Assembly (NCBI RefSeq): GCF_004361695.1
Contig: NZ_SNVW01000009.1
Location: 1 to 64,000 of the forward strand
Source of the DNA: Curtobacterium flaccumfaciens
GTDB lineage: Bacteria; Actinomycetota; Actinomycetes; Actinomycetales; Microbacteriaceae
Reading direction: 5' to 3'
Length of the DNA: 64,000 nucleotides
The notes beneath the pieces are model-generated. The model was not told where the DNA came from, ran no database searches, and saw only the letters and a list, made by a program, of their open reading frames with translations. A program made the translations under genes and the position numbers. This document shows positions 23,321-45,476 of this stretch, piece by piece. The stretch's first letter is position 1. Every line of letters starts with the position of its first letter.

Positions 23321-24532
23321 GTGTCAGAGGACGCCACCACCGCCACCGCCGAGCCGACGGGTGCGACGGGCGGTCACCGACCGCTCCGCGTCCTGATCGC
23401 AGCGGACACCTTCGCCCCCGACGTGAACGGCGCTGCCACGTTCGCCGAACAGCTCGCCGTCGGCCTCACCGAGCGCGGGCACGAGGTCCACGTCGTCGCC
23501 CCGGCGTCGAGCCGCCACTACGGCACCTTCGACGAGGAACTCCACGGCGTCACCCTCGTCGTGCACCGCCTGAAGTCGTACAAGTGGCCGCTCCACCCGT
23601 GGCTCCGCTTCGTGTGGCCGTGGAGCGTCCGGAAGTGGACGGGCCCGATCCTCGACGCCGTCCAGCCCGACGTGCTCCACATCCAGTCGCACGTCGTGGT
23701 CGGCCGCGGCATCGTGCACGAGGCGAAGGCCCGTGGCATCCGGGTGATCGCCACGAACCACTTCATGCCCGAGAACCTGCTCGAGTACACGCCGTTCGGC
23801 AAGTGGACGCTGCCCATCGCGCTGAAGCTCGCGTGGAACGACGCCGCGAAGACGTACCGGCAGGCCGACGCGATCACGACGCCGACGAACCTGGCGGCCG
23901 ACTACCTGCGCCGTGCGATCGCCGGGCAGCGCGTGCTTGCGATCTCGTGCGGGATCGACGCCTCGCGCTACGTCGCCCGCGAAGGGCGTCCGGCGAACAA
24001 CGACATCGTCTTCGTCGGCCGGGTCGCTCCGGAGAAGAACCTCGACGTCCTCGTGCGGGCCCTGGCGATCCTGCCGGCCGAGCTCGCGACGACGCTGACG
24101 ATCGTCGGCGACGGCGAGATGATCCCGAAGCTCACCGCCCTCGCGAAGGAGCTCGGACTCGAGGACCGCGTGCGCTTCCTCGGGTTCGTCTCGGACGAGG
24201 TCAAGCAGCAGGCGCTCACGAACGCCACGGTGTTCGCGATGCCCTCCACGGCGGAGCTGCAGAGCATCTCGTCGCTCGAGGGGATGGCCTCGGGGCTGCC
24301 CGTCGTCGCGGCGGACTCGATGGCGCTCCCGCACCTCATCGACGGCAACGGCTACCTGTTCGCGCCCGGCGACGTCGACGACCTCGCGGCGAAGCTCACG
24401 GCGGTGCTGACGGCGTCCGACGACGACTACGTCGCCATGCGGGAGCGCAGTCTGGCCATGATCGAGGCACACGACATCAACCGCACGCTCGCGACGTTCG
24501 AGGCGCTGTATCGTGGGGAGCCGGTGGCCTGA
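23321..24532 (+). CDS. GT4-family glycosyltransferase
   Basis: A 403-residue GT-B fold enzyme of the family 4 mannosyl/glucosyl type. The N-terminal domain has RVLIAADTFAPDVNGAATFAEQLA; the linker has CGIDASRY; the donor-binding C-terminal domain has VFVGRVAPEKNLDVLVRAL and the STAELQSISSLEGMASGLPVVAAD segment (EX7E-like). It resembles actinobacterial GDP-mannose-dependent transferases of glycolipid synthesis (PimB/MgtA type), but donor and acceptor are inferred. The start is GTG 23321. tRNA-Met lies 13 nt downstream. Confidence 0.9.
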   Translation: MSEDATTATAEPTGATGGHRPLRVLIAADTFAPDVNGAATFAEQLAVGLTERGHEVHVVAPASSRHYGTFDEELHGVTLVVHRLKSYKWPLHPWLRFVWPWSVRKWTGPILDAVQPDVLHIQSHVVVGRGIVHEAKARGIRVIATNHFMPENLLEYTPFGKWTLPIALKLAWNDAAKTYRQADAITTPTNLAADYLRRAIAGQRVLAISCGIDASRYVAREGRPANNDIVFVGRVAPEKNLDVLVRALAILPAELATTLTIVGDGEMIPKLTALAKELGLEDRVRFLGFVSDEVKQQALTNATVFAMPSTAELQSISSLEGMASGLPVVAADSMALPHLIDGNGYLFAPGDVDDLAAKLTAVLTASDDDYVAMRERSLAMIEAHDINRTLATFEALYRGEPVA

Positions 24533-37194: not shown

Positions 37195-38781
37195 TCAGGC
37201 GTGCGCGGGGAACACCGGCACGGGGAACACTGCGGCGACCTCGGCGCGGACCGCGGCGAGCACCGCCTCGCGCATCACCGGCGAGAACAGCGAGTGGTCG
37301 CCCTCGGGCACCCGCACGACCCGGAGTTGCCCGGCCCACCTGCGCTCGGCCCGCTGCCCGCCGAGCTGGTCGAACAGCTCGGCGTCGCCGGGCGACGTGA
37401 TGAGCACGACCTCGATGCCGTGCTCGACGAGGGGCCGCACGTGGCCGGCGACACCGCCGGCACGGTCACGGCGTGCCACGCGGTCCCGTACGACCTTCGG
37501 GACGATCGTGTTGTACCAGCCGCGGATGCGCAGGCGTGCCGGTGACGGCTGCGCGACCGAGCGTGCGCCGTCGGCGTACGAACCGGGAGCAGCGGCCTGC
37601 CGCCGGTAGTCGTTCGGGCTGATCTCGACGACGAGCCGCGGGGACTCCTCCGACGCCCGGCCGGCGAGCCACGCGCCGGCGCACATGCCGACGAGGGCGA
37701 GCCGTTCGGCCGGTACAGCGAGGGCGGCGACGACGGCCGACTGGTCGTCGACCCACTCCTGGGTGAAGAGGAACGACCGCTCGTCGGCGCGGACCGGGGT
37801 GCTCTCGCCGGTGCCGCGTCGGTCGAGGCGGACCACCCGGGCACCGTCGCGGGCGAGTGCCCGGGCGAGGGCGACCTGGTAGTCGGACGCGCCGACCCGG
37901 TGCTCCGCGGCACCGCTGTGCAGCACCACGACCGGGGCGTCCTCGGACTGACCGGAGGCGACGGTCTCGACCGCGAACAGGGCGTCCGGGCCGAGCTGCA
38001 CGATCCGCTCGGACACGCGGGCGTCGACGTCGAGCACCTCGGTGAGCGGCGGCAGGACCGTCGGCACCGTGGCCTCGGGCACCCAGGCGTCCACCTGGTC
38101 GACGACCGTGGCGACCGCGGCGCTCGGGATCACCGCGATGATGCTCGTGCCGTCGAGGAGTTCGGCGCTGCCGTCGACCTCGACGGTCGGCACCGCGCCG
38201 AGGGCCCGCGGCGCCGTGGCACCGGGGCGGACCAGGGCGACGGTCGGCCCGGACCGCGGCGCGAACCCGAGCGCACCGAGCGCGGCGGCCTCGTCGGGGT
38301 CGAGGTCGATCCCGACCAGGCTCTCGACACCGTCGACCACGCGGTCGAGGCCGATGGTCATCGTCGCGAGGGCGCGTTGCCCGCGCAGCCAGGCGCGACC
38401 GGAGGCCGGGGCGTCCCAGACGACCAGGCCGTCGGTGTCGTCGGCCGCCGCGGCGGCGACGAGCGCGGCGGACGCGAGTCCGACGAAGACGACGTGGTCG
38501 ATGCCACTGGACCGCAGCAGGGCTGCGGCGTGCCGGGCGGACCGGACCTGCGCGTCCGGAGCACCGTCGGGCGCGGCGTCTCCACGTCCGGACGGGTCGT
38601 AGCGCACCGAGGCCACGCCACGCGCCTCCAGGCCGTCGGCGAGCAGCCGCAGCGTGCGGTACGCGATGACGCCCTGCTGTCCGAGGGGCGGGCAGATCAC
38701 GACGCCCGCACGTGCCGCGGGCGGCAGCTGGAGGGCGACGCGGAGTGCCGGGTGACCCGACCAGCCGTGGTGCGTGCTCAC
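37195..38781 (-). CDS. Tandem alpha/beta hydrolase with cysteine nucleophile, carrier-protein operon
   Basis: A 528-residue protein that reads as two alpha/beta-hydrolase domains. The N-terminal one (about 1-230) has the fold pattern (VVICPPLGQQGVIAYRTLRLLADGLEARG, VRYDPSGRGD), but its elbow is GLASAA, with no Ser/Cys nucleophile in place. The C-terminal one (about 280-528) has RLDRRGTGES, elbow LVGMCAGAWLAG with Cys367, and VPEGDHSLFSP with His496. A Cys nucleophile suggests acyl or aminoacyl transfer via a thioester, or thioesterase activity. GTG 38781 overlaps the ligase stop (GTGA), so it is the terminal gene of the aminoacyl-carrier operon and a plausible offloading enzyme. Confidence 0.8.
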   Translation of the reverse strand: MSTHHGWSGHPALRVALQLPPAARAGVVICPPLGQQGVIAYRTLRLLADGLEARGVASVRYDPSGRGDAAPDGAPDAQVRSARHAAALLRSSGIDHVVFVGLASAALVAAAAADDTDGLVVWDAPASGRAWLRGQRALATMTIGLDRVVDGVESLVGIDLDPDEAAALGALGFAPRSGPTVALVRPGATAPRALGAVPTVEVDGSAELLDGTSIIAVIPSAAVATVVDQVDAWVPEATVPTVLPPLTEVLDVDARVSERIVQLGPDALFAVETVASGQSEDAPVVVLHSGAAEHRVGASDYQVALARALARDGARVVRLDRRGTGESTPVRADERSFLFTQEWVDDQSAVVAALAVPAERLALVGMCAGAWLAGRASEESPRLVVEISPNDYRRQAAAPGSYADGARSVAQPSPARLRIRGWYNTIVPKVVRDRVARRDRAGGVAGHVRPLVEHGIEVVLITSPGDAELFDQLGGQRAERRWAGQLRVVRVPEGDHSLFSPVMREAVLAAVRAEVAAVFPVPVFPAHA

Positions 38782-39746
38782 AGCGCGAGGGCCGTGCGGA
38801 CGTCCGCCGGCCAGGTGTCGGGGTCCGTGCCGTGCGCGGCGAACAGCGCGATCGTGGTGCGCTCGAGGCCGTAGGCGACGCAGGCGCTGTGCGCGACCCC
38901 GCCGTCGGCGCTCCGGATGCCGAACGAGGTGCCGAAGTGGTCCTCGTGCAGGTTCGCCGAGCCGATCGCGGTCGCCGGGTGGTCGTCGCCGTACACCGGG
39001 GTGACGAACTCGAACTTGAGCGCCTGCTCGACCTGGCTCCGGGCGAGCATCTGTCCGACGCGGCCGAAGAACGGGTCGTTGGCCGGGACGACGTCGACCT
39101 CGAGGCCGAACGACTCGAGCAGCGCTCGCATCACCGGGATGCGACCGTCGCGGTGCTCCCGCGCGCTGTCCGGCGTGCCGACGTGCACGAACTCGTGCAT
39201 GTGGAAGGACTGCAGCCGCATCGGGTCGAGGGAGGGCTCCCGGCGGAAGGAGTCGCCGAGGATGTCGAACGTCCGTCCTCCCGGCGGGAGCGCACCCGAG
39301 AGCATGCCGTAGAGGGGGTGGCAGACGGCCGGGGTGAGCATGAGGTCCGCGGGCTCGAGGAACGACTCCCAGCGGTCGCCGCGCTCCCGGGCCGCCAGCA
39401 GGGCGCGGTGCGTGCGGTCGTCGCCCGTGAACGCCGAGATCGACGCGGCGAGGTCGGGGAACGACGCGATGTAGTCCGTGCGCTCGAAGGCCGCGAGCGG
39501 CTCGACGGGCGGGAAGCGGAGCACCTCGGCGTCGAGGTCGGCCTGGTTCCGGACGCCGGCGGCGTCGACCGCCTGGTAGACGCGCTCGAAGACGCCGGAG
39601 CGGCCGTACAGACCGGGGGAGCCGAGGTCGAGCAGGACACCGTCGTCGAGCAGGCGGGCGCGGAGTTCCGCGCGGGCGGCGTCGAGGTCGGTGGCGGTGG
39701 TGCCCGTGGTGGGCTCGGTGCTGGTGGTCGGTTCGGTGATGGTCAC
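38778..39746 (-). CDS. Amino acid:[carrier protein] ligase (class II aaRS-like)
   Basis: A 322-residue paralogue of atypical seryl-tRNA synthetases that lacks a tRNA-binding domain. Such enzymes adenylate a small amino acid and load it onto the phosphopantetheine of a dedicated carrier protein, as shown for Bradyrhizobium and Agrobacterium homologues. Visible features: motif 2 SFRREPSLDPMRLQSFHMHEFVHVG, motif 3 VAYGLERTTIAL, and the zinc triad Cys142 (TPAVCHPL), Glu185 (MHEFVH), Cys289 (HSACVAYG). The GTG start overlaps the dehydrogenase stop (GTGA). The first 20 residues are a Thr-rich tail. The amino acid is not predictable with confidence; Gly or Ala is likely by family. Confidence 0.88.
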   Translation of the reverse strand: MTITEPTTSTEPTTGTTATDLDAARAELRARLLDDGVLLDLGSPGLYGRSGVFERVYQAVDAAGVRNQADLDAEVLRFPPVEPLAAFERTDYIASFPDLAASISAFTGDDRTHRALLAARERGDRWESFLEPADLMLTPAVCHPLYGMLSGALPPGGRTFDILGDSFRREPSLDPMRLQSFHMHEFVHVGTPDSAREHRDGRIPVMRALLESFGLEVDVVPANDPFFGRVGQMLARSQVEQALKFEFVTPVYGDDHPATAIGSANLHEDHFGTSFGIRSADGGVAHSACVAYGLERTTIALFAAHGTDPDTWPADVRTALAL

Positions 39747-41008
39747 AGGATCGCTCCGGTCATGAGTGCCAGTCCGGCGTCGTTCTGCAGGAGACGGTCG
39801 TTGCTCACCATGACGGCGGCACCGTGCGAGTCCCGGAGGAGGCGGGCCACGCTGAGCGGCCCGGTGGCGGCGAAGCCGGCGATGCCGACGATCCGCATCG
39901 CCTTCGTGACGATGTCGGTGACCCGCTCGGACGCACTGATCTTCAGCGCGTTCGCGGCGAGGGCGTACGCCGTCGACTCGAGGACCTCGGGGTCGTCCGC
40001 GACCGCGTCGAAGCGGTCTGCGGCGTGCCGCACGGCGTCGGCCAGCGCCTGCAGGTCGACGAGGACCTCGGCGAGCCGGAGGGCTCCGGGCGGGGTCTGG
40101 CCCACCGCGGCGCGGGCCTGCTTGCGGACCGCGCGTCGGGCACGGTCGGCGGCCTCGGCGGCGAAGCCGAGCCAGACCGAGGCCCAGAGGACGTGCGACA
40201 CCGGCAGGACCGTGCGGGCGGAGATCACGGCGTAGTCGTCGTGGAGGATCCGGTCCTCGTGGGTCTCGGTGTCGAGCACCCAGCCGTTGCTGCACGTGCC
40301 GCGGAGCCCGAGGGTGTCCCACGTCGAGGTCTGGGTCAGGGTGGTCTCCGACGGCAGGCAGACGACGAGACGCTGGTCCGAGGCCGCGGCGTCGAGGTCA
40401 CGGCGGGCGGTCACGAGGATCGCGTCCGCCTCGGTCGCATACGAGATCACCGGGGCGTCCTTGCGGAGCCGGATCCGGCCCGCGTCGTCGACCTCGATCG
40501 CGCAGGTGCTCCGGCGGGCGTCGCCGCCGATGCCCTTCTCGGTCGTCGACGAGGCGACGAGGGCGCCCGCGCGGACGGCCTCGACCATCGTGGTGACACC
40601 GGGGGCGGAACCGCCGTGCCGCCAGAGGGCCATCGCCTGGCCCTGGTGCATCGCGAAGACCATCGCGGTCGCACCGCACGCGCGGCCGAGTTCGGTCGCG
40701 ATGACGGAGAGCTCGGCGAGGGTCGCGCCCTCGCCGCCGAGCGACACCGGGACCGCGGCGGCGAGGAGGCCGTGCTCCTTCATCGCGGCGATGGCCTCGC
40801 GCGGGGGACGTGCGTCGCGGTCGACCTCGTCGGCGAAGTGCGCGGCGACCTCGGCGACGAGAGCCGTGCGTGCGGCGAAGCGGTCGGTCGTGGCGGTGAG
40901 GGCCGGCGACGCTGCCGGTGCCCCTGCCGTGGTCGCGTCCGGTTGCGTCGTCGCGTCCGGTCCGGTGGCGGCCGCGGTGGTCGTCCGGTCGAGGACCGGC
41001 GCGGTCAC
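39743..41008 (-). CDS. Acyl-CoA/ACP dehydrogenase homologue of the carrier-protein operon
   Basis: A 421-residue flavoprotein of the acyl-CoA dehydrogenase superfamily after a 40-residue Thr/Ala-rich extension. Family landmarks: HGLLAAAVPVSLGGEGATLAELSVIATELGR, MVFAMHQGQAMALWRHGG, ASSTTEKGIGGDARRS, and the C-terminal MRIVGIAGFAATGPLSVARLLRDSHGAAVMVSNDRLL. The Glu that serves as catalytic base in medium-chain enzymes is not present at the equivalent place, so either another residue does the job or the chemistry differs. In context it may oxidise the aminoacyl group on the carrier, as flavoenzymes do for prolyl carriers; that is inference. It overlaps genes on both sides (GTGA). Confidence 0.85.
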   Translation of the reverse strand: MTAPVLDRTTTAAATGPDATTQPDATTAGAPAASPALTATTDRFAARTALVAEVAAHFADEVDRDARPPREAIAAMKEHGLLAAAVPVSLGGEGATLAELSVIATELGRACGATAMVFAMHQGQAMALWRHGGSAPGVTTMVEAVRAGALVASSTTEKGIGGDARRSTCAIEVDDAGRIRLRKDAPVISYATEADAILVTARRDLDAAASDQRLVVCLPSETTLTQTSTWDTLGLRGTCSNGWVLDTETHEDRILHDDYAVISARTVLPVSHVLWASVWLGFAAEAADRARRAVRKQARAAVGQTPPGALRLAEVLVDLQALADAVRHAADRFDAVADDPEVLESTAYALAANALKISASERVTDIVTKAMRIVGIAGFAATGPLSVARLLRDSHGAAVMVSNDRLLQNDAGLALMTGAIL

Positions 41009-41292
41009 GCGCCCAGCTCCGCGGCCGCCGTGATCGACTCGATGGTCGCGAAGGTCGAACGGTTCAGCACGGCGTCGGGGAACTCCACGTCGAGTTCGTT
41101 CTCCACCGCGAGCATCACGTTCACGGTCGCGTGCGACGTCAGCCCGAGGGCGTACAGGTCGGCGATGGACGCCACGTCCATGGCGTCGGTGCTGAGGCGC
41201 CCGTGGTCGGCGAGAGCTCGGCGGACGGCCAGTTCGGTCGTCGGGGTGGCGAGTGCGACGGCGGTCGCTGCGGTGGTCTGGTCCTGGTGCAT
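41005..41292 (-). CDS. Dedicated phosphopantetheine carrier protein
   Basis: A 95-residue carrier with a 20-residue Thr/Ala N-terminus and a four-helix core. The attachment site is LYALGLTSHATVNVMLAVENE, with Ser53 in place of the DSL serine. The acidic segment ENELDVEFPDAVLN is typical of partners of amino acid:carrier ligases. It differs clearly from the fatty-acid AcpP at 28977. A TATCGT -10 box (41300-41305) lies 7 nt upstream of the ATG, so this gene probably starts its own leaderless transcript. The stop overlaps the dehydrogenase start. Confidence 0.88.
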   Translation of the reverse strand: MHQDQTTAATAVALATPTTELAVRRALADHGRLSTDAMDVASIADLYALGLTSHATVNVMLAVENELDVEFPDAVLNRSTFATIESITAAAELGA

Positions 41293-41392
41293 GCCCGCAA
41301 CGATAAGGACCGCGGGCGCCCGGAAAACCGCCGTGCGGGTGCGCGAAGCCGCACGTGGTCCGGCGTTGCTGTGCGGTCGTGCAGGAAGGCGC

Positions 41393-41770
41393 TCAGCGGG
41401 CGGTCAGCGCCACCGCGGTCGCGACCGCCAACCCGCGCTCGTGCGCCAGGGAGACGGCGATCGTGTCGCACCCGATCGCCTCGGCGAGGGCCGCTGCCCG
41501 GCCGCGCAGCGCGACCACCGGGGCGCCGGCCGCGTCGAGGAGGATCGCCACGTCCGTCAGCGGGACCGCGTCCGAGCGGTCGGGCCGGAGGAGCTTGACC
41601 ACCGCCTCCTTGCCGGCGAACCGTGCCGCCAGGCGCTCCGGGTCGTCGCCGGCGTCGGCGCGCTCCGCGGCGGTGAACACCCGGGACAGGTACCGCTCGC
41701 CGTGCGCGTCGATGCCGGCGATGACGTCCTCGACGGCGGCGAGGTCGGTCCCCGTGCGGATGGTGGTCAT
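41393..41770 (-). CDS. acpS: AcpS-type 4'-phosphopantetheinyl transferase
   Basis: A 125-residue holo-ACP synthase family protein that attaches phosphopantetheine to carrier proteins. Conserved parts: RTGTDLAAVEDV (Asp9), YLSRVFTAAERAD, and RFAGKEAVVKLL (Glu54, Mg2+ ligand). It lies 100 nt upstream of the carrier gene and has its own TAGCCT -10 box 6 nt before the ATG. It could be the general AcpS of the cell, serving AcpP too, or dedicated to the neighbouring carrier; the window does not settle this. Confidence 0.88.
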   Translation of the reverse strand: MTTIRTGTDLAAVEDVIAGIDAHGERYLSRVFTAAERADAGDDPERLAARFAGKEAVVKLLRPDRSDAVPLTDVAILLDAAGAPVVALRGRAAALAEAIGCDTIAVSLAHERGLAVATAVALTAR

Positions 41771-41814: not shown

Positions 41815-42477
41815 TCAGCGGAACGCCTGCACGACCCCCGGGACGACGGCGTCGGGCGTCAGCTGGATGAGCCGGTACCTGGTGCCCTGGTCGTAGGCGA
41901 GGACGACGGTGTGCCCCTCCCAGAGGTACGGGTACGAGCTCGGCTTCGGCCGGTTCGCGGTGAACTCCGACAGCACGGCGCTCCGCGCGGTGGTGCCGCG
42001 GTGCACGTCGTAGAGCGCGACCTCGTCCGGCGAGCTGCCGGTCGCGAGCGAGCACGTCGTGTCGACGAGGTACTGCGTCCCGCCGTCACCCCGGAGGTCG
42101 CCCGAGGCGGTGACGAGGGAGGCGAGGTCGCCGTCGCAGATCTGCAGGCCGGGGTGCTCCGCGGCGCTGATCGCCGCGGTGAGCCCGGGGACCGTGGACG
42201 CGTTCGGGTACTGGTCCTGCCGGCCCGGTCGCGGCGGCTGCCCGGTGGGGAACGTCGGCGTCGGCGCGGCCGTGGTCGGCGCCGTCGTCGGGGCCGTCGT
42301 CTGCGGTGCCGTCGTGGTGGGGGCAGTCGACGTCGAGGCAGCGGTGGTCGCCGACGCCGTCGGGCCACTGCCGGAGGCGTCGGCCGGGGTGGTGGTGCTC
42401 GCGCACCCGACGAGGGCGACGGACGCCAGTGCGGCGGACGCCAGCACGGCCAGGAGGTTCGGGGTGGTGCACTTCAC
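41815..42477 (-). CDS. Putative lipoprotein with Thr/Pro-rich linker
   Basis: A 220-residue protein: lipoprotein signal LLAVLASAALASVALVGC, a Ser/Thr/Pro/Ala linker of about 60 residues, then a roughly 130-residue domain (PGLTAAISAAEHPGLQICDGDLASLV, YLVDTTCSLATG, LWEGHTVVLAYDQGTRYRLIQLTPD) with two Cys. No family is recognised. GTG 42477 has AGGAAGGGAAG upstream. It is divergent from the two-component operon and shares its intergenic region with the ACGGAACTGACACA motif. Confidence 0.75.
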   Translation of the reverse strand: MKCTTPNLLAVLASAALASVALVGCASTTTPADASGSGPTASATTAASTSTAPTTTAPQTTAPTTAPTTAAPTPTFPTGQPPRPGRQDQYPNASTVPGLTAAISAAEHPGLQICDGDLASLVTASGDLRGDGGTQYLVDTTCSLATGSSPDEVALYDVHRGTTARSAVLSEFTANRPKPSSYPYLWEGHTVVLAYDQGTRYRLIQLTPDAVVPGVVQAFR

Positions 42478-42620
42478 GGGGGCGGTCTTCCCTTCCTGCG
42501 AGCGGCTGCTCGCGACGGAGTCCGACGGTAGGCCCGCCACGTCTCGCTGCGGTGTCGTGCCAGCCTGCCCCGGAGCGCCCGGACGTCGTCCATCCGCACG
42601 CGGACGTGCGACGATCTGTG

Positions 42621-42634
42621 ACGGAACTGACACA
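42621..42634. promoter_or_regulatory. ACGGAACTGACACA motif upstream of the two-component operon
   Basis: This 14-mer recurs with one mismatch at 45579-45592, at the other end of the two-component locus. It lies in the gap between the divergent lipoprotein and secreted-protein genes, 44 nt before the latter. It is a candidate response-regulator site. Confidence 0.45.
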
Positions 42635-42677
42635 TCGCTGCAGCGCGACGGACACCGAGGGGAACCAGGCTCGCACC

Positions 42678-43175
42678 GTGACCATCCCCTTCCGTCCCCG
42701 CACCGCCGGCATCGTCGCCACCGCGCTCGCCGTCGTCGCGGTGTTCGTCGTGGCGGTGTCCGCGATGGCGGCGCCGGCCCCGCAGGACACCGCACCCCGG
42801 GCAGCCGTGCTCGCACTCGCGCCCGCGTACTACGCCGGGTGCGGTGAGCAGGCGGTCGCCGAGCCGTCGTCCGTGCCGATCTGGTGCGAGTCCTCGGACC
42901 AGCGCCTGGAGAACCTGGTGTGGTCGTCGTGGGGCGACGAGGACGCGGCCGCGACCGGCGTCCTCACCGACAACCCCTGCGACTGCGCCGGGGGGACCGT
43001 GACGGCGTACCCGGTGGCCGTCCGGTTCGACGGCGCAACGCGCGTCGGCGAGGTGCAGCGGTACCAGCGGCTCAGCATCACCTTCGCCACCCACCGACCG
43101 GCGTGGGCGGTCCGTCCGACCATGCACTTCCTGTGGGGCGACCTCGGGTTCGTCAGCGACCAGGAGCGACCATGA
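42678..43175 (+). CDS. Secreted protein encoded with a two-component system
   Basis: A 165-residue protein with a signal peptide or anchor (GIVATALAVVAVFVVAVSAMAAPAP) and four Cys in the exported part (YYAGCGEQ, PIWCESSD, NPCDCAGG), probably two disulfides. The C-terminal half contains VAVRFDGATRVGEVQRYQRLSITF. No family is recognised. Its stop overlaps the response-regulator ATG, so it could be a sensory accessory or the main target of the pair. Confidence 0.75.
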   Translation: MTIPFRPRTAGIVATALAVVAVFVVAVSAMAAPAPQDTAPRAAVLALAPAYYAGCGEQAVAEPSSVPIWCESSDQRLENLVWSSWGDEDAAATGVLTDNPCDCAGGTVTAYPVAVRFDGATRVGEVQRYQRLSITFATHRPAWAVRPTMHFLWGDLGFVSDQERP

Positions 43176-43891
43176 CCCCGCCCAGCCCCGTACACAACGC
43201 CCCGGCACACAGCACCGCGAACGGTGGGCCGTCCCCGCTGGTGCTGCTCGCCGAGGACGACGCCGACGTCCGTGAGACCACCCAGCTGCTGCTCCTCCGT
43301 CGCGGCTGGCGCGTCACCCCCACCGCCGACGGCGTCGAGGCACTCGAAGCGGTCGACGTCGAGCTGCCGGACGTCGCCGTCGTGGACGTCGCGATGCCGC
43401 GGCTGAACGGCCTCGACCTGACCGGACGGCTCACCGCCCTCGGCGTCCCGGTGGTCCTCCTCACCGCCCGCAGCCTGCCCGTCGACGAGGTGCAGGGGCT
43501 CGCGGCCGGCGCCGACGACTACGTCACGAAGCCGTTCGACGCCGACGTGCTGTCGGCCCGGCTGCACGCCGTCCTCCGCCGCCGCCGTGGTCCGGCGACC
43601 GAGGTGACGACGGTCGGCGACGTCCGCATCGACGTCACCGGGCGCCGGGTCGACCGCGCGGGCACCCTCGTGCCGCTCAGCTCCGTGGAGTTCCGGGTGC
43701 TCGAGGCCCTGCTCCGGAACCGCGGCGCGGTGCTGAGCCGCGAGCAGGTCATCGCGATGGCGTGGGACAGCACGTGGCAGGACCCGCGCATCGTCGACAC
43801 CAACGTGCAGCGGCTCCGCCGGAAGCTCGGCCCCGACGTCATCGAGACGGTGCGCGGCTTCGGCTACCGGATCGAGGTCGCGCCCTCGTGA
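43172..43891 (+). CDS. OmpR-family response regulator
   Basis: A 239-residue regulator: receiver domain with the acidic pair AEDD (about 28-30), phosphoacceptor Asp72 (VVDVAMPRLNG) and Lys120 (DYVTKPF), then a winged-helix DNA-binding domain (EFRVLEALLRNRGAVLSREQVIAMAW, IVDTNVQRLRRKLG, VRGFGYRIE). A 20-residue N-terminal extension precedes the receiver. It overlaps genes on both sides (ATGA upstream, GTGA downstream). Confidence 0.95.
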   Translation: MTPPSPVHNAPAHSTANGGPSPLVLLAEDDADVRETTQLLLLRRGWRVTPTADGVEALEAVDVELPDVAVVDVAMPRLNGLDLTGRLTALGVPVVLLTARSLPVDEVQGLAAGADDYVTKPFDADVLSARLHAVLRRRRGPATEVTTVGDVRIDVTGRRVDRAGTLVPLSSVEFRVLEALLRNRGAVLSREQVIAMAWDSTWQDPRIVDTNVQRLRRKLGPDVIETVRGFGYRIEVAPS

Positions 43892-45156
43892 CCGGCACCC
43901 CCGCGACGTGGACCTCTGCCTCGAGCACGGTCCGGCAGCCGACCGCGCCGACCGAGCGCACCCCGTGGTGGCGGTCGCTCCGGTTCCGTACGGCGGCCGC
44001 GATGACGGTCCTCGCCACCACGCTCGTCGTCGCCGCGGGCGCGGTGTTCGCGCACACCGCCATCGACGACGCGACCGAGCAGCTCCGGCAGCAGGCGCTC
44101 ACCCAGCTCGACGAGACCATCGCCACCCAGTCCTTCGGTGGCGCGCTGCCGTCACGGGCGACCGACGACCCGTCCGTCCTGCCCGCCGCCCTCCGCACCG
44201 CGATCGGCCGCGGCTCCACCGCGACCTACGACGACGGCACCTGGATGTGGGCGGCGCGGGAGCAGGCCTCCGGCGTCATCGCCACCCGGGTCGACAACAC
44301 CGCACTCCGGACCCAGTGGGCGAACCTGCAGCGCACGTTCGTGCTCGCCGCGGTGCTCGCGGCCGTGCTCGCCGCCGCCGGCTCGTGGATCGCCGCCGGA
44401 CGGCTGACCGCGCGGCTGCGGCGTGCCGCCCGCACCGTGGACGACACCGTCGCCGGCCGCGCCCCCGCCGAGGTCCGCGGGGACGACGAGGTCGCGGTCC
44501 TGTCCCGCGGGCTCGCGGAGACCGCCGCCGCGCTCGCCCGGAGCCTCGACCACGAGCGGGCGATCAGCGCCGAGGTCGCACACGACATGCGGACGCCCGT
44601 GACGGCGCTCGTCGGTGCCGCCGAACTCCTGCCGGACGGCCCGGACGCCGAGCGCGTGCGCCGGGTCGCCGCGCGACTCCGCCAGCTGCTCGACGACCTG
44701 CTCCACCTGTCCCGCGCCGCACACGAGGCCGGGCAGGTGCGGTCGGTGCCGGCGGACCTGGCACCGACCGTCGAGCACGTCCTGCACGCCGAGGGCCTCG
44801 ACGAGCGGGTGCGATTCGCACCGGGCGAGTCGGCGCGGGTGCTCGTCGACGTGGAGCACCTCGGGCGCGCGCTGACGAACCTCGTGGCGAACGCGGAACG
44901 GCACGGGGAGCAGCCGGTCGTCGTGCGGGTCGACGGGGCGTCCGTGACGGTCACCGACAGCGGCGCGGGGTTCCCGGACGACGTCCTGCGCGACGGTCCC
45001 CGGCGGTTCGGGGCGCTCGGCTCGCACGGCGGGTCCGGCATCGGGCTCGCCATCGTGCTGCAGCACCTGGCCGCCTTCGGTGCCGTGCTCCGGCTCGCGA
45101 ACACCGACCACGGCGCCGTCGCGACGGTCGAGCTGCGCCGCGCGCCGCAGCGCTGA
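43888..45156 (+). CDS. Sensor histidine kinase
   Basis: A 422-residue membrane kinase: one helix at about 36-56, a roughly 95-residue extracellular sensor, a second helix at about 151-170, a HAMP-like linker, dimerisation domain with His232 (SAEVAHDMRTPVTALVGA), and ATPase domain with N box LTNLVANAERHGEQ, DSGAGFP and GGSGIGLAIV. The signal is unknown. It is the third gene of the secreted protein-regulator-kinase unit. Confidence 0.94.
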   Translation: MTGTPATWTSASSTVRQPTAPTERTPWWRSLRFRTAAAMTVLATTLVVAAGAVFAHTAIDDATEQLRQQALTQLDETIATQSFGGALPSRATDDPSVLPAALRTAIGRGSTATYDDGTWMWAAREQASGVIATRVDNTALRTQWANLQRTFVLAAVLAAVLAAAGSWIAAGRLTARLRRAARTVDDTVAGRAPAEVRGDDEVAVLSRGLAETAAALARSLDHERAISAEVAHDMRTPVTALVGAAELLPDGPDAERVRRVAARLRQLLDDLLHLSRAAHEAGQVRSVPADLAPTVEHVLHAEGLDERVRFAPGESARVLVDVEHLGRALTNLVANAERHGEQPVVVRVDGASVTVTDSGAGFPDDVLRDGPRRFGALGSHGGSGIGLAIVLQHLAAFGAVLRLANTDHGAVATVELRRAPQR

Positions 45157-45200
45157 GGCGACCCGCGGGGAGCGGCCCACCGCCCAGCGTGACCAGCGGA

Positions 45201-45243
45201 CGGCCTGGAGGCGCGGTGCGGAGCCGCCACGCGCCTCCCGGCC
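45201..45243. repeat. CTGGAGGCGCG-family palindrome
   Basis: GGCCTGGAGGCGCGGTGCG faces an imperfect right arm CGCCACGCGCCTCCCGGCC, beginning about 45 nt after the kinase stop. It is immediately followed by a perfect GC palindrome at 45277. Confidence 0.75.
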
Positions 45244-45276
45244 CGGGGTGGTCGCGACCAGGGCCGCGCAACGGTC

Positions 45277-45308
45277 CCCGCGGAGCCCACCCGGGTGGGC
45301 TCCGCGGG
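45277..45308. terminator. Perfect palindrome between convergent genes
   Basis: CCCGCGGAGCCCACCC and GGGTGGGCTCCGCGGG form a 16-bp palindrome with no spacer bases. It sits between the kinase (plus) and a small membrane protein (minus), and could terminate both. Confidence 0.75.
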
Positions 45309-45335
45309 TCGGGTCGGCTCAGCCGACTTGCGTGC

Positions 45336-45476
45336 TCAGCCGACCCAGAGCAGTGCGAGGCCGATGATGCCGGCGAAGACGACGGCGATCGCCACCTCGA
45401 GGAGGACCACGACCAGGTCGTCCCGCTGCGGGGCGTCGTCGAGGTCGGAGGGGCGGTGGGAGGGGATCGCTCGCAT
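45336..45476 (-). CDS. Small single-span membrane protein
   Basis: A 46-residue ORF: MRAIPSHRPSDLDDAPQRDD followed by one transmembrane helix rich in Val, Ile and Leu (LVVVLLEVAIAVVFAGIIGLALLWVG). Support comes from the TAGCGT -10 box 7 nt before the ATG (45484-45489), G/C-rich third codon positions and a terminator palindrome just beyond the stop. Function unknown; it may relate to the adjacent kinase. Confidence 0.6.
   Translation of the reverse strand: MRAIPSHRPSDLDDAPQRDDLVVVLLEVAIAVVFAGIIGLALLWVG

Follow-up and report, generated by a model that had tools for sequence, protein, structure and literature searches.

Five minus-strand genes in a stretch of 64,000 nucleotides from Curtobacterium flaccumfaciens (GCF_004361695.1, contig NZ_SNVW01000009.1, positions 1–64,000 of the forward strand; hereafter the window) are a conserved aminoacyl-carrier module and a real unit. 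They encode a phosphopantetheinyl transferase (PPTase), a carrier protein (CP), a homologue of acyl-CoA dehydrogenases (ACAD), an amino acid:[carrier protein] ligase and a tandem alpha/beta hydrolase, and we propose with moderate confidence that the cassette passes a group derived from an amino acid to the precursor of a polysaccharide. A sequence-only reading of this DNA had suggested loading of an amino acid, its oxidation, and transfer or release of the product. Loading is well supported as a prediction by family scores, residues and the adjacent CP and PPTase genes, oxidation is uncertain, and as between transfer and release the context favours transfer. A glycan precursor as acceptor was not proposed in that reading, and is favoured here by the polysaccharide loci in which relatives of the cassette lie and by a fusion of the hydrolase to a flippase.

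Conservation of the neighbourhood, named beforehand as a test of the module, is evident among relatives, though only 20 of 398 Microbacteriaceae genomes contain the ligase family (16 above cut-off; 10 of 396 genomes in an even draw within the phylum at E 0.001, 4 of them above cut-off). Within the window's genus, 20 loci (window included) all carry the CP, ACAD, ligase and hydrolase genes and 19 carry the PPTase gene, the sole locus without it, L011, running into the end of its contig; no two of these loci are near-identical in the hydrolase. Twelve loci in other Microbacteriaceae genera have CP and PPTase genes throughout and ACAD and hydrolase genes in 11 cases each, and such matches rule out a cassette unique to one genome. 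In 30 proteobacterial loci the genes found within 7 kb include ACAD (24), CP (22), DUF1839 (15) and a gene resembling glycoside hydrolase family 2 (GH2; 15). A tandem-hydrolase profile, built partly from rows of genomes that it then found, matched 21 of the 398 Microbacteriaceae genomes at E 1e-20, namely all 20 with the ligase and one other, G769 (20/20 against 1/378, Fisher P 8e-33 with shared descent ignored). Four of the 21 matches (G685, G555, G427, G615) cross one stop, which the gene coordinates put at the protein's end.

Genes for polysaccharide synthesis lie near the ligase more often than expected from random placement. Taking one best ligase per genome in 28 of the 29 ligase-positive actinobacterial genomes (the marginal G393 was left out) and treating related genomes as independent, a PF02397 sugar-phosphate transferase gene lies within 10 kb in 6 genomes against 0.30 expected (P 4e-7) and within 25 kb in 9 against 0.72. 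For the PF13440 flippase the test covered 49 genomes, including 21 of the 37 ligase-positive genomes of a second set, and 5 have such a gene within 10 kb against 0.53 expected (P 2e-4); two of the five are hydrolase fusions and one (G788) is below cut-off. Regions of the second set were opened for all 21 genomes over cut-off and for 5 of the 16 others. Our neighbourhood table comprises 73 loci, with short search loci and two other stretches of the genome of L015 (L140, L141) excluded. Its polysaccharide labels were rejected as stand-alone evidence, because the hidden Markov models (HMMs) behind them were trained on genes from the same loci, and several, such as the polyprenyl glycosylphosphotransferase (PGPT) labels in L080 and L123, have no Pfam check; the independent evidence consists of genome-wide Pfam positions and Pfam and NCBIfam scans.

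L060 and L075 contain a continuous run of genes for PGPT, family 4 glycosyltransferases (GT4), a PPTase-CP fusion, ACAD, ligase and hydrolase, with a 4-bp overlap at the junction of GT4 and PPTase-CP; Pfam confirms GT4 in both loci and PF02397 in L075, which belongs to the window's genus and occupies the same aceE/peroxiredoxin site. In L062 and L063 the hydrolase gene overlaps one that encodes a polytopic membrane protein, with GT4 and PF02397 genes nearby. The flippase label of this protein in both loci is our own; in L063 it has ten transmembrane-like windows and no Pfam match, and the gene labelled polymerase in L063 likewise has no Pfam match. In the proteobacterial locus L120 a 1093-aa protein starts with a PF13440 (Wzx-type flippase) domain and ends with the hydrolase, and the similar proteobacterial locus L121 encodes a protein of the same length, 91% identical and also matched by PF13440; both fusions adjoin a GT4 gene and a CP-ACAD-ligase-DUF1839-GH2 set. 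Finally, a Tsukamurella plasmid, among the 5 of 93 plasmid records opened, carries the ligase, CP, PPTase and a hydrolase homologue among four annotated glycosyltransferases, a PGPT and an annotated lipopolysaccharide biosynthesis protein that is flippase-like, with PF01943 and PF13440 matches. A plasmid megablast with the cassette itself gave no match. At L015, a 590-aa gene by the ligase was considered as the hydrolase and rejected, since its letters point to an AMP-binding enzyme that includes a carrier domain; a 440-aa gene beside the same ligase has no Pfam match, the one PF13440 match of the genome at that place falls below cut-off, and a hydrolase-like match lies on another contig.

A number of observations weigh against a general link to polysaccharides. 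At only 19 of the 73 loci does a label of the polysaccharide type fall within 9 kb, in several cases a single glycosyltransferase (window's genus 1/20, other Microbacteriaceae 7/12, other Actinobacteria 3/11, Proteobacteria 8/30), and PF02397 is absent within 10 kb in 22 of the 28 genomes. In a ligase tree of 53 loci the window's ligase belongs to a nine-row clade (100/99), no member of which has such a label within 9 kb; in one member, G430, the distance to a PF02397 gene is 19 kb, and GT4 and Wzc-like labels lie further out. The PF02397 and PF13440 genes of the window's genome lie on other contigs, contig C6 bearing labels of the Wzc, Wzy and GT4 types, and within the window the HMM set found no polysaccharide-type label other than a lone GT4-type glycosyltransferase gene (23384–24529), about 14 kb from the ligase gene. 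The hydrolase itself lies within 7 kb in only 6 of the 30 proteobacterial loci. In G592 it is far from the ligase, beside GT2-type glycosyltransferase and phosphoketolase genes, and in G769, a member of the window's genus, it persists at the usual chromosomal site (L180, 8095–9675) with the other four genes gone; that genome has no ligase match, and no ACAD, CP or PPTase label stands beside the hydrolase. The genomes behind the co-inheritance are related and therefore not independent (G436 and G506, for example, are of one genus), as are those of the proximity test, and since L120 and L121 are close relatives their fusion may be a single event. Because the cassette stands alone in the window's clade, the acceptor pathway would there be supplied in trans, or may differ.

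These solitary cassettes are also consistent with the production of a small amino-acid-derived metabolite, in which Gly or Ala would be loaded, oxidised on the carrier by the ACAD homologue, and released by the hydrolase or handed to a small-molecule partner. ACAD homologues are known to oxidise a carrier-bound amino acid on prolyl carriers; RedW is one such enzyme, and its NCBIfam model weakly matches the ACAD homologue of Azospirillum (41 of 650 bits). ATP-grasp genes adjoin the cassette in L069 and L070, and L070 also has a class-III aminotransferase gene. We nevertheless consider a metabolite unlikely, in view of the fusion of hydrolase to flippase, the overlap with glycosyltransferase genes and the lack of a recognisable export or resistance gene within the cassette; moreover, the four ATP-grasp-labelled genes of L069 sit in a locus with GT4, GT2 and PGPT labels. 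The group might instead go to another envelope acceptor (a teichoic-type polymer, a lipid, peptidoglycan or a protein), the polysaccharide link then reflecting a shared lipid carrier or envelope function. The precedent of Dlt, the weak, below-cut-off matches of the CP to DltC models and the lack of a polysaccharide neighbour within 9 kb of the window's cassette speak for such an acceptor. We judge it distinctly unlikely, however, as the flippase and sugar-transferase links point toward polysaccharide export, and the Pfam-scanned part of the neighbours contained no MBOAT-like or teichoic gene, in scans that included no MBOAT-directed search. Least probable of all is that the hydrolase is a thioesterase that edits or cleans up mis-charged carriers and lies near polysaccharide genes by chance or through genomic hot spots: alpha/beta hydrolases often serve as type II thioesterases and this one survives alone in G769, but its near-perfect co-inheritance with the ligase, the P value of 4e-7 for PF02397, an elbow residue that is Cys, not Ser, in 31 of 32 rows and its physical fusion to a flippase domain all argue otherwise.

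Transfer to a polysaccharide precursor is the reading we favour. The individual proteins are listed in Table 1. All five open reading frames, first described as a minus-strand set in the sequence-only reading, were confirmed, as was the joining of the last four by GTGA, which overlaps at each of the three junctions CP/ACAD, ACAD/ligase and ligase/hydrolase. The ligase starts with GTG at 39746, and a gap of 100 bp separates the PPTase and CP genes. A profile search, suggested earlier as a check, placed the ligase, CP and PPTase above NCBIfam cut-offs, and the ACAD N- and C-terminal domains and the C half of the hydrolase above those of Pfam.

Table 1. The five genes of the aminoacyl-carrier cassette in the window.
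Product	Position	Strand	Family match
PPTase, AcpS-type, 125 aa	41393..41770	-	PF01648 44.6 bits; TIGR00556 57.0 bits (above cut-off 45.35)
CP, 95 aa, attachment Ser53 in LTSH	41005..41292	-	NF005480 85.4 bits (above cut-off 72)
ACAD-fold flavoprotein homologue, 421 aa	39743..41008	-	PF02771/PF00441 above cut-off
Amino acid:[carrier protein] ligase, class II, seryl-tRNA synthetase (SerRS)-like, 322 aa	38778..39746	-	NF005479 382 bits (above cut-off 357)
Tandem alpha/beta hydrolase, 528 aa	37195..38781	-	TIGR03101 40.2 bits and TIGR03100 56.6 bits (both below cut-off)

In the window the cassette is separated from genes for a 187-aa protein of unknown function and an aldo/keto reductase by an insert (41815–45476) that holds a lipoprotein-like gene, one that has no Pfam match, and genes for a response regulator and a histidine kinase. 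This insert clustered only with that of L072; in L002, L071, L073 and L074 the 187-aa and aldo/keto reductase genes directly adjoin the PPTase gene.

Residues were compared in loci L002–L015 and L049–L076, which are actinobacterial, plus the ligase of L015, with rows kept by length (ligase 260–420, ACAD 340–430, hydrolase 480–640, CP 70–110 aa); these limits drop the short models of L011, the uncalled models of L059 and the fused PPTase-CP proteins. The ligase triad C142/E185/C289 (Met counted; 141/184/288 in P0002 numbering), which we take to be the zinc-binding site and which had been described as intact, is identical in all 42 ligases, as are the class II motif arginines R167 and R295 (P0002 numbering). 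The closest solved structure is Bll0957 of Bradyrhizobium (PDB 3mey, E 1.4e-72). Loading of an amino acid on holo-CP is well supported at the level of predicted function by the family scores, by the intact triad and class II residues, and by the adjacent cognate CP and PPTase. In Bradyrhizobium diazoefficiens under microoxia, bll0957 and the neighbouring-numbered acyl-CoA dehydrogenase gene bll0958 are both up in a phaR mutant according to tabulated data (transcripts 3.0-fold each, protein log2 2.5 and 1.7), with no operon predicted for them in the table and many other genes shifting in the same mutant (PMC10888616). Divergent ligase-like proteins, often of about 400 aa and scoring about 100–175 bits, occur with other neighbours in L142, L144, L146 and L054–L058, and L053 (7144–18327) holds two distinct ligase-CP sets at most about 11 kb apart, one with a PPTase gene and the other with ACAD, DUF1839 and GH2-like genes.

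The attachment motif LTSH of the CP had been called non-canonical, and the motif is indeed present; its supposed oddity is a family trait, since 30 of 31 aligned CPs share Ser53 and His54 (the remaining row is masked) and 27 have Thr52, and a Ser-His motif peculiar to the window is thereby ruled out. Three proteobacterial CPs have LTSH, LTSF and LSSL at this site. The PPTase, which presumably converts the CP to its holo form, misses the narrower acpS equivalog TIGR00516 (45.8 bits against a cut-off of 59.8) and forms a single protein with the CP in six relatives (L060, L064, L066, L067, L068, L075).

In the ACAD homologue the middle Pfam domain falls below cut-off. In the alignment, Val401 stands where solved ACADs have the Glu of their YEGT motif, the position of the base in medium- and short-chain enzymes (MCAD/SCAD type). 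The earlier remark that the canonical glutamate is missing is confirmed, and of 34 rows 28 have Val here, 4 have Ile and 2 have Glu. Dehydrogenation is uncertain because of this substitution. His272 is found in 33 of the 34 rows, and the base position of isovaleryl-CoA dehydrogenase would, on our assumption, fall at the adjoining Ser271. PDB matches include DnmZ and 3mxl, an entry named nitrososynthase. Given the absent Glu, the conserved His272 and these matches, the protein may be an oxygenase, a binding protein, or a dehydrogenase that relies on another base.

The best NCBIfam matches of the hydrolase are exosortase-A hydrolase 2 (TIGR03101) for its N half and hydrolase 1 (TIGR03100) for its C half, far short of the respective cut-offs of 202.75 and 168.45 bits; the C half also matches Abhydrolase_1 above cut-off. 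The Cys367 elbow, noted earlier as odd, is present as described, but it is the rule rather than an oddity: Cys367 is found in 31 of 32 hydrolases (Ser in L075), with Asp466 in 31 and His496 in all 32. The N-terminal elbow serine is less well kept (26/32), and the N half may for this reason be structural or acceptor-binding. An Azospirillum relative scores 109 bits with each of the two models. While the top five of 60 Microbacteriaceae genomes in a TIGR03100 search are the five with the ligase, the model at E 0.001 matches 28 of the 60 and 8 of 14 controls, none above cut-off, and since it thus also matches other alpha/beta hydrolases, the exosortase likeness is weak when taken alone. Among 299 proteobacterial genomes, 16 match TIGR03100 at E 1e-25, 15 of them above cut-off, and in all 16 corresponding loci (L163–L178) hydrolase 1 has a G-x-C-D Cys elbow. 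A CP-like gene immediately precedes hydrolase 2 in two of these loci (L163, L166), and L178 is a natural fusion in the order hydrolase 2 then 1. These elbows and CP-like genes indicate that the Cys elbow is a trait of a wider, sometimes carrier-linked group of hydrolases, and an elbow peculiar to the window is ruled out by the counts in both sets. The elbow is a shared and probably catalytic feature, and its presence in all 16 loci argues for thioester chemistry in the exosortase-A system also.

We propose that the AcpS-type PPTase would arm the CP, and that the SerRS-derived ligase would then activate a small amino acid, which going by characterised relatives would be Gly, Ala or the like, and load it on the CP in thioester linkage. 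In cassettes that have it, the ACAD-fold flavoprotein may modify the CP-bound aminoacyl group, and the tandem hydrolase would accept the group on Cys367 of a Cys-His-Asp triad and hand it to an acceptor, most likely a lipid-linked or nucleotide-linked sugar en route to an exported surface polysaccharide, before the flippase step. Gene content, conserved motifs, co-inheritance, the statistical link to polysaccharide genes and the flippase fusion are observed; the amino acid, the redox step, the direction of transfer and the acceptor are inferred. Two further features of the neighbouring genes may be recorded. Four ATP-grasp-labelled genes flank the CP and ligase genes of L069 (6997–13936), one of them confirmed by Pfam, with glycosyltransferase and PGPT labels around them. 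Next to the CP-ACAD-ligase genes of L120 (11652–13762) are genes for a class II tRNA-synthetase-like protein and for a radical SAM protein that weakly matches lysine-2,3-aminomutase; together they look like an EF-P lysylation pair.

It is possible, though we put this forward only tentatively, that a ligase related to aminoacyl-tRNA synthetases (aaRS), a CP and a Cys hydrolase form a general route by which an amino acid or its ACAD-oxidised derivative is placed on exported polysaccharides in both Actinobacteria and Proteobacteria, the exosortase-A pair being its unfused version. If true, the route would stand beside Dlt as a second counterpart of independent origin, and the purpose of amino acid:CP ligases would be explained. 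Their biological role is given as unknown in a passage of a 2022 review (PMC9437257), and no title or abstract among the matches listed from the open-licence PMC literature ties them to polysaccharide. The cassette context suggests a use for this enzyme family of hitherto unknown purpose: the linkage of the ligase to a tandem Cys hydrolase, and of both to polysaccharide genes in several relatives, yields a specific hypothesis as to where the amino acid goes, and hints at what the exosortase-A hydrolases may do.

Aminoacylation of an envelope polymer by way of a carrier protein is best known from Dlt. The likeness of its D-alanylation to the cassette is in logic only: adenylation, loading of a carrier protein and transfer to an envelope polymer. 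The activator of the window is a class II aaRS homologue, whereas that of Dlt is the ANL enzyme DltA, and the cassette would use as transferase an alpha/beta hydrolase that has a Cys elbow; DltA and lipoteichoic acid are mentioned in a passage of PMC6594144. The window shares with the PRK07080/NF005479 ligases and PRK07081/NF005480 CPs the scores above cut-off, the triad and class II residues, a short catalytic-core protein and an adjacent CP, and differs from those systems in that its operon includes a tandem Cys hydrolase and a dedicated PPTase of the AcpS type. Transferases of the CmaE/SyrC type employ a Cys nucleophile. According to a passage of PMC8748450 they shuttle aminoacyl groups between carrier proteins, in the context of nonribosomal peptide synthetases as opposed to the polysaccharide loci described here, and we liken them to the hydrolase by description, not by sequence. 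The exosortase-A hydrolases have in common with the tandem protein the order 2 then 1 and the Cys elbow in hydrolase 1, but the window's protein lies far below their curated cut-offs, and activation in the window would be by a class II aaRS-like ligase.

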